A stretch of 64,000 bases of DNA from Komarekiella atlantica HA4396-MV6 (GTDB taxonomy: Bacteria; Cyanobacteriota; Cyanobacteriia; Cyanobacteriales; Nostocaceae): positions 186,001-250,000 of the forward strand of contig JAHHHK010000004.1 of assembly GCA_019359395.1 (NCBI GenBank), in the 5' to 3' direction. The notes below the pieces were generated by a model. It was not told the origin of the DNA. It did no database searches and saw only the letters and a program-made list of their open reading frames with translations. This document shows, in pieces, positions 87 through 14,896 of the stretch (positions are counted from its first letter, which is position 1; each line of letters begins with the position of its first letter). The position numbers and the translations under genes are program-made.

Positions 87-308
87 TTAAACAGCAGGAT
101 AGATATTTGCGAAATTTTCTGTTAGCTCTCTGCGTCCACTACCCCGATGAGACGGAATTTTTGGGTTAGTTTTGTTCGCCGAGAGCAACTGTTGCGAATC
201 AGGCGTGGCAAGCAGTTGATCGGATAATTGATTGACCATTACTTGGCAGTTAGAAGCTAAGGGGCCGAACGCCAGACTCGATACTAAAAGTGAAATGGCA
301 GCACGCAT
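87..308 (-). CDS. patX: PatX-like small exported protein with RGSGR pentapeptide
   Basis: This 73-residue protein has a hydrophobic, signal-peptide-like N-terminus (residues 1-19, MRAAISLLVSSLAFGPLAS). Near the C-terminus, residues 54-59 read HRGSGR, followed by a 14-residue tail. RGSGR is the active pentapeptide of PatS and HetN, which inhibit HetR. Small signal-peptide proteins with a C-terminal RG(S/T)GR motif are the PatX family, widespread in filamentous cyanobacteria; as I recall, patX (asl2332) also lies a few genes from hetR in Anabaena PCC 7120. A complete hetR follows about 13.7 kb away on the other strand. The inferred role is a processed morphogen peptide that inhibits HetR and helps set heterocyst spacing. 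A TCCGGA element lies 58 bp upstream of the ATG. Family assignment rests on motif, size and neighbourhood, not on a database search. Confidence 0.82.
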   Translation of the reverse strand: MRAAISLLVSSLAFGPLASNCQVMVNQLSDQLLATPDSQQLLSANKTNPKIPSHRGSGRRELTENFANIYPAV

Positions 309-365
309 AGCAGATGTCTATTTTGGAACTCTCCAATTCACTGATACTTAACTTTTTGATGAATA

Positions 366-371
366 TCCGGA
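366..371 (-). promoter_or_regulatory. TCCGGA (DIF1-like) element upstream of patX
   Basis: A perfect TCCGGA palindrome lies 58 bp upstream of the patX-like ATG. In Anabaena PCC 7120, TCCGGA is the core of the DIF1 motif found around -35 of promoters induced in differentiating cells. Reading leftward, a weak TATCAG follows about 19 bp later as a possible -10. Placement next to a pattern-formation peptide makes developmental control plausible; the start site is inferred. Confidence 0.5.
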
Positions 372-409
372 CAATTTGCAGAAAAGTATTGTTCTTTACT
401 GAAAATAAA

Positions 410-12513: not shown

Positions 12514-12644
12514 TACATGACCTTTGACAACCTCCTCCTGTGGTTGCCGCTATGCGTAACTTGCTTAAGCATAGGGGTACACAAAAAGATGTGCTTAAAC
12601 ATGCAACAGCTTATTTACTAGGTTTAAATATTTGAGAGACTCAA

Positions 12645-12941
12645 ATGACAAACAAATCTAATGCTAAGCCCACAAATGCTTTTGATGATCCAGACTTTGC
12701 TCTAGAGGCACAGAATGAGGTTGAACATACCAATCGCGTCCTTGATCAAAATTTACCAAGCAATAATGCGTTAGGCGGATTTCAAGGGGAAATCTTCGCT
12801 GCTGATGTCAATTCAGTGAATATCAAAATTGATCGGGTTTTTCAGATAACAGAAGCGATCGCCCATCACAAAGCTAGTCAACTTGAGATGCGATCGCCTA
12901 AATGCCCAGAAGGTAAATTTTTTTACAGTAACCTCCTGTAG
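12645..12941 (+). CDS. Hypothetical small protein upstream of hetR
   Basis: This 98-residue soluble protein has no recognised domain. The N-terminus is Asn/Asp-rich (MTNKSNAKPTNAFDDPDFAL), followed by an amphipathic region and a helix with paired histidines (EAIAHHKASQLEM). A weak purine-rich GAGAG box precedes the ATG. The last 15 residues follow a HIP1 octamer and differ in character, so the original C-terminus may have been lost by a frameshift. It lies alone between the EamA gene and the hetR upstream region, transcribed in the same direction as hetR. Function unknown. Confidence 0.5.
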   Translation: MTNKSNAKPTNAFDDPDFALEAQNEVEHTNRVLDQNLPSNNALGGFQGEIFAADVNSVNIKIDRVFQITEAIAHHKASQLEMRSPKCPEGKFFYSNLL

Positions 12942-13996
12942 GTATTAACAACTCATCCATATAGATCTAGTTCCTCAAACAGGTCAGTCAGTAGATAAGC
13001 AACTTACTTAAAAGCAACAAAGAAATTAGCTCAATGACAAAAATCTAATTTTTTGTTGTTATCAAAAGTCAGAAACTTATCTGGTAAAATCTTACAAATA
13101 ATCATCAAACCAAATCCCAAATATGATTTTGTGATGTTTAATTACTCGTCAAGTCTTTAGGTTGCCATAGTGCTGTAAATCTAAACATTAGCCTGGGTAG
13201 ATACACCGGGAATTCTGTATCATCCCTGTCAGCACAAAGGAATGAATAAAAATTCTGCTTGTTAGGATACTTTTAAATATCAAGAAACCTTGATTTTTGA
13301 AAGTATAAATTATCAAAATTATTCACCACTTATTAGGTTAAAAAAACATGACTTTATTTCTATTTAAACATGACTTTATACCTATTTTATAGAAAAAATG
13401 CTATGGTTGTAAGTAATGATGTTGGAAAAATCTAAAGGTATTTTGAAATTGGAATTATCGGCTTTATTTGTTGTTTACCATTTGCCCTCAAGTCAACTGC
13501 CTATACTGCCGAGACATTACTGGAGGTTGTAAACGTGATGATAATTCACAACATATCCTGTGAATGTTGCTACACCCAGTAAGAGAGTTCCTCTTAATTT
13601 CCTCCTAAATTCCTATCACCTGTGTACTATCAAAAGTTGCCAAGACCGATTAAAGGTCATCTTAATTTGAGTAGTAGACATTGGGAAAAACCGGAAAACT
13701 TAACAGACTTTGTAAGTTACGAGGAACACAGTTGACTTGTAGAACGCAAATCGCATCAAGCGAGGTTTGGCGATGTCCGTGATTTTTCGGTTAAATACAG
13801 GAAAAGCTATATTGACAGTATTGCTTCTACCTGTTTGCCAGAAGAAATACGTAAATAACAATTTTGGCTGCCAAAAATCTCATAGTTATTGCATACTAAA
13901 TAGTTTGAAATAAAGACATTGCCTTCAAGAGGGTGTATACTACCTATTTTCACTTGACTAATAATCGTGTAAACGTGCTATTCAATTGTCTGTAAT
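12942..13996 (+). promoter_or_regulatory. Long hetR upstream region
   Basis: About 1.05 kb without a gene precedes hetR. In Anabaena PCC 7120 hetR is likewise transcribed from several start sites spread over more than 700 bp, so length alone fits a complex developmental promoter. A TGTATACT box at about 13936-13943 is a candidate extended -10. I found neither TCCGGA nor an obvious NtcA half-site pair, and no Shine-Dalgarno box immediately before the ATG. Confidence 0.5.
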
Positions 13997-14896
13997 ATGA
14001 GTAACGACATAGATCTGATCAAACGTCTTAGCCCCAGTGCGATGGATCAGATCATGCTTTATCTGGCTTTTAGTGCCATGCGGACGAGTGGGCACAGGCA
14101 TGGGGCATTTCTAGATGCAGCTGCAACGGCGGCAAAGTGTGCAATTTACATGACCTATCTAGAGCAGGGGCAAAACCTGCGAATGACAGGACATTTGCAC
14201 CACCTGGAGCCGAAACGCGTAAAAATTATTGTCGAGGAAGTTAGACAAGCGCTAACAGAGGGCAAACTGCTGAAAATGCTGGGTTCTCAAGAACCTCGCT
14301 ATCTGATTCAGTTGCCTTATATCTGGTTAGAGAAGTATCCTTGGCAACCGGGGCGATCGCGCGTTCCCGGTACAAGTTTGACAAGCGATGAAAAAAGACA
14401 AATTGAGCAGAAACTACCGAGTAATCTGCCAGACGCTCAATTAGTTACCTCTTTTGAGTTTCTGGATTTGATAGAGTTTTTGCACAAGCGATCGCAAGAA
14501 GACTTGCCACCTGAGCATCAAATGCCTTTGAGTGAAGCTTTAGGTGAACATATCAAGCGTCGTCTGATTTATTCGGGTACAGTAACACGCATAGATTCTC
14601 CTTGGGGAATGCCCTTCTATGCTCTGACTCGTCCCTTTTATGCCCCAGCAGACGATCAAGAGCGCACTTATATCATGGTGGAAGATACTGCTCGGTATTT
14701 CCGAATGATGAAAAATTGGGCAGAAAGGCGACCAAATGCCATGCGCTTGTTGGAAGAGTTTGATATCAAACCAGAACGATTAGAGCAGGCTATGCAAGAA
14801 TTAGATGAAATCATTCGTGCTTGGGCAGATAAATATCACCAAGATGGTGGCATTGCAGTAGTTTTACAGACGGCTTTTGGCAAAAAAGAAGATTGA
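13997..14896 (+). CDS. hetR: HetR, master regulator of heterocyst differentiation
   Basis: This 299-residue protein has exactly the length of Anabaena HetR and matches it throughout (opening [20 protein letters not shown]). Residues studied genetically are all present by count: Asp17, Gly36, Cys48, His69, Ser152, Ser179 and Arg223, and the PatS-contact cluster Glu253, Glu254 and Asp256 in LLEEFD. HetR is a DNA-binding dimer that activates its own gene and heterocyst genes and is inhibited by RGSGR peptides from PatS, PatX and HetN. The intact hood domain suggests normal peptide sensing. It is monocistronic by context: a long upstream region precedes it and a hairpin directly follows the stop codon. 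Confidence 0.99.

Follow-up and report, generated by a model that had tools for sequence, protein, structure and literature searches.

In filamentous cyanobacteria, the RGSGR fragment of the small protein PatX restrains HetR, the master regulator of heterocyst formation. According to a 2025 report on PCC 7120, PatX is exported and then cut by the peptidase PatP (Alr1666); in the account given there, a reporter placed behind PatX signal sequences is exported in E. coli, a patX lacking its signal fails to block differentiation in PCC 7120, a PatX fusion is cut by PatP in E. coli, and loss of PatP in a patS mutant of PCC 7120 resembles the patS patX mutant (PMC12756182). The signal tested for PatX of Nostoc PCC 7120 was the hexapeptide HRGTGR (PMC12756182, PMC7476756), reported to bind HetR at 88 nM and to block HetR DNA binding in PCC 7120 (PMC12756182). 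In the same paper, the cut is put 27 residues ahead of the motif, the in-vivo sites are described as awaiting confirmation, and a second diagnostic peptide is said to lie past the motif (PMC12756182). The RGSGR pentapeptide acting on HetR is also what the PatX studied here shares with PatS and HetN (PMC7761841). PatS differs in being 17 aa long and in yielding RGSGR or ERGSGR, HetN in carrying its motif internally; cleavage of both is believed to take place in the cytoplasm, unlike that of the exported PatX (PMC12756182, PMC7761841).

Within the window analysed here, a stretch of 64,000 nucleotides from Komarekiella atlantica HA4396-MV6, positions 87–308 of the minus strand hold an ORF of 73 aa with an ATG start, a fast-evolving middle, HRGSGR (codons at 132–149 on the minus strand, residues 54–59 of the product) and a tail of 14 residues; its length, motif and tail are as the first-pass annotation had described them. 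The RGSGR itself occupies residues 55–59 of 73, in the C-terminal part, and the N-terminus, hydrophobic when inspected by eye, is a putative export signal. The ORF is a textbook copy of the already described PatX, real, correctly named and ordinary, and gives a known signalling family another clean example. We put at about 0.9 the probability that it is an ordinary intact patX of the type found in heterocyst-forming cyanobacteria, which would be switched on through NtcA and DIF1. As in PatX (Asl2332) of Nostoc/Anabaena PCC 7120, there is a match to the model NF047413, a hydrophobic N-terminus and a C-terminal HRG(S/T)GR, with an NtcA box and DIF1 upstream and hetR in the same chromosome region; unlike that protein, with which we compare it by description, it has RGSGR in place of RGTGR (PMC7761841).

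The ORF scores 77.2 bits (cut-off 30, E 1.2e-21) against NF047413, the NCBIfam equivalog model for the heterocyst-inhibiting protein PatX, over profile positions 1–68 of 69. The PatX call goes beyond chance because of this E-value to a curated model, because the product is the sole match in a genome-wide model search of its own 7.78-Mb genome, and because none of 14 control genomes gave a match. A Pfam search of the product returned no match. Identities to nine family members are 62, 55, 63, 56, 59, 63, 50, 56 and 64%, and the alignment has 19 invariant columns, among them M1, R2 and I5–L8; the closest named PatX among the matches listed is that of Nostoc sp. MG11 (95% identity), followed, again among those listed, by Komarekiella delphini-convector and Nostoc sp. 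B(2019) (93% each). Upstream, patX is flanked by a gene for an FAD-dependent oxidoreductase (PF12831; 410–2269, minus strand), and such a gene lies on the same strand within 400 nt 5' of patX at all 80 loci examined (the best 80 of 97 named loci). At 1140–1215 the oxidoreductase gene of the window contains an in-frame tandem repeat of REASR units.

The patX promoter has the published layout of an NtcA box and DIF1: the palindromic DIF1 motif TCCGGA lies at 366–371 on the minus strand, 63 nt 5' of the ATG, and an NtcA-type box GTAN8TAC (GTAAAGAACAATAC) at 386–399 on the same strand, 91 nt 5' of the ATG. Elhai and Khudyakov, in 2018, reportedly gave a DIF1 distance of 69 nt upstream of patX and an NtcA box in heterocyst formers. 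With a spacer of 10–18, the pair occurs at one site in the 7.78-Mb genome, that of patX, and at none in the reversed control; with one mismatch allowed, the window contains one pair against 0.07 expected, at least one being seen in 6 of 100 shuffles, while TCCGGA alone is rarer than expected there (2 against 7.15). A near-identical pair pattern was found at 0–6 sites per genome in seven other genomes (control, 0–2), and only one of those sites was seen 5' of a patX (in genome G230); since the sites of other genomes are so seldom seen there, the pair taken alone is not specific. It supports the patX call without proving it, and its fixed spacing across the family is the stronger point. Out of 111 PatX genes from the same GTDB family, 105 have an exact DIF1 at 61–65 nt and 110 have one there with at most one mismatch; an exact NtcA box stands at 86–96 nt in 75 of the 111, leaving 36 without one. 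Among the best 80 of 97 named loci, DIF1 is at 63 nt in all 80 and the exact NtcA box in 65. As a patX finder, TCCGGA-N54–60-ATG was rejected, since five genomes free of PatX matches each gave an unusable 76 to 151 sites. The DIF1 promoter of patX in PCC 7120 is reported to be active in (pro)heterocysts and hetZ-dependent (PMC7377430), and considering the promoter layout here, nitrogen stress would act through NtcA and the DIF1 promoter to turn on patX in would-be heterocysts.

The family counts come from 111 PatX genes above the cut-off, one per genome, in 118 genomes sampled evenly from the same GTDB family. The motif is RGSGR in 109, RGTGR in one and RGGGR in one, so that homologues with a conserved RGSGR, by the absence of which the first-pass annotation would have had its reading judged, are the rule. 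That annotation had also presented the His before the pentapeptide and the 14-residue tail as a variant, and here it erred: the preceding residue is most commonly H (73 genes; Y 29, W 3, V 2, and N, D, F and S one each), and 14 residues is the commonest tail length (64 genes; range 2 to 48, with a tail absent in none). The residue after the motif is R in 73, K in 15 (basic, 88 of 111) and another in 23. Taken over motif, preceding residue, tail, promoter spacing and hetR distance, the 111-gene table makes the features that had been flagged normal ones. A second table, of the best 80 of 97 organism-named loci, has His before the motif in 75 and a 14-residue tail in 56; it partly covers the same species and is biased, both by that choice and by one of its two scan peptides, which contains HRGSGR. 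In other families the motif forms the C-terminal end in 9 of 16 parsed PatX genes, and two of 54 loci, outside the parsed counts, have translations ending at RGGGR and RGSGR. In some Nostoc genomes (six loci) the middle of PatX is ~25–50 residues longer than usual. A codon comparison with four close relatives gave 2–6 synonymous against 4–11 replacement codons, so that, with these four, strong purifying selection on PatX as a whole is not apparent.

On the plus strand of the window, at 13997–14896, lies hetR, intact and encoding 299 aa (NF009718, 623.8 bits; cut-off 489). Profile searches gave a full-length model match and the hood domain, and the product aligns over 299 of 299 positions, with scattered substitutions only, with the solved HetR sequences 3qod and 4hri, which we take to be those of PCC 7120 and Fischerella. 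Residues S152, S179, R223, E253, E254 and D256 are all present, which upholds the earlier statement that an intact hetR with these residues stands 13.7 kb from the peptide gene; that both partners look functional is a fair description of the PatX and HetR sequences and reaches no further than sequence. Between patX and hetR, at 5004–6312, are adjoining HTH_17 and PIN_3 domain genes that resemble a toxin–antitoxin pair. No exact DIF1 was found 5' of the hetR of the window; ACCGGA is at 13690–13695, 307 nt 5' of its ATG, and the hetR of three Nostocaceae relatives has TCCGGA at 310–318 nt (the start codon was found at 27 of 30 hetR loci).

The table of patX–hetR distances that had been proposed was built from the same 118 genomes, all of which have a hetR match (117 above the cut-off). 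We left out of the count six match-free genomes and G230, whose match falls below the cut-off. G271, which has two copies, was reduced to one, G226 and G293 lost their weak second matches, and for G200, where hetR is in two pieces, the shorter piece was removed. The two genes share a contig in 70 of 111 genomes and lie on different contigs in 41, many assemblies being drafts. They are within 16 kb of each other in 46 of the 70, divergent at 6.9–15.2 kb, as here, in 41 of these and in the same orientation at 5.2–6.0 kb in five; the remaining 24 have them 35 kb to 4.7 Mb apart, distances not being wrapped round circular chromosomes. Proximity of patX and hetR is common, not universal, and considering that it recurs in 46 of 70 one-contig genomes, we reject a special linkage in this genome.

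Across the order more widely, a sample of 195 genomes gave a hetR match in 113 and a PatX match in only 72, a deficit that is due to loss or to low sensitivity of the short model, between which we cannot tell. Within the family, five genomes that are 99–100% complete, three of one genus and two of another, have hetR and no PatX match; as the reading there covered 30 of 93 motif sites, loss is not proven. G267, initially match-free, and G230, below the cut-off, both hold a diverged PatX. Three of the 72 (G008, G138 and G144) match PatX and gave no match to hetR, for which assembly gaps are a possible cause; G138 is 82% complete and its PatX match is weak, and G008 is 99% complete.

The patX gene, its promoter elements, hetR and their conservation are demonstrated in this genome. 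All steps after the DNA are taken from homology: the product would be exported, cleaved by PatP and bound by HetR, and the cleavage and HetR inhibition known from PCC 7120 are putative for it. An unlikely alternative is that the gene is a genuine patX whose main role in this strain lies beyond the HetR circuit, filament breakage being one example, or that it is mostly redundant, with patterning done by a PatS-type peptide. Transcriptomes from Leptolyngbya, in which PatX effects are reported to have looked HetR-independent (PMC11298460), would agree with it, as would the account that PCC 7120, when depleted of nitrogen, showed no recognizable change on losing patX alone (PMC7761841) and the presence of a PatS-like ORF of 13 codons in the same genome; against these stand the NtcA box and DIF1 at fixed spacing family-wide, and the reports from PCC 7120 that overexpressed patX stops differentiation and that the hexapeptide binds HetR (PMC12756182). 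That ORF 87–308 is a chance reading frame with a chance RGSGR-like string has next to no probability and is rejected, since the model score, the homologues in 111 of 118 genomes and the conserved upstream neighbour (80 of the best 80 of 97 named loci), together with the NtcA/DIF1 promoter pair, stand against the one point that favours it, a degenerate motif pattern with 119 genome sites (54 + 65), below the 207 (102 + 105) of the reversed control. Because this pattern is rarer than its reversed control, the RGSGR motif alone is insufficient as proof; with one extra residue the counts are 9 + 11 against 16 + 16. The identity of a PatS was likewise rejected for the ORF, on its length of 73 aa, the 14 residues past the motif and the PatX model match.

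For the ordinary patX that we favour, the earlier comment that processing is open now stands in part: export and a PatP cut are reported for PCC 7120 (PMC12756182), and what persists of the comment concerns the exact in-vivo cut sites and the loss of the tail. Tail removal is the remaining question, since the cut described there falls before the motif. We suggest, tentatively and as a reading that we hold to be possible rather than probable, that the C-terminal tail may be a fixed processing element of the lineage and not leftover sequence, because it is present in 111 of 111 genes, with Arg or Lys after the motif in 88 and 14 residues in 64, and because 9 of 16 PatX of other families stop at the motif. 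The C-terminus of the hexapeptide could then be released by another cut, at the basic pair; alternatively, the tail could hold the precursor silent until that cut. The second diagnostic peptide of the PatX cleavage work may be part of the maltose-binding fusion partner, in which case it would not locate the cut that takes off the natural tail.

Our survey of degenerate motif places in the genome of the window covers the first 100 of 119. The PatS-like ORF of 13 codons (MLAIFDGERGSGR, then a stop) is located near 37711 of contig C21 and is too short to be told from chance by itself; the 1500 nt 5' of its motif contain no TCCGGA. Among 20 sites of the [E/D/H/Q]-RG(S/T)GR-like pattern in this genome there was no HetN-sized frame with the motif, other preceding residues being possible. 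Further afield, four other families in the order have exported proteins of the PatX type in which RGSGR is present several times. Four loci carry 3, 3, 4 and 3 copies, and among 11 chosen for long frames, ten carry 5, 6, 11, 3, 3, 3, 17, 4, 4 and 6 copies (the PatX with 11 being that of G008) and one carries none. From their sequences, these PatX with 3–17 copies look like multi-copy peptide precursors, and they are more interesting than the patX of the window itself.
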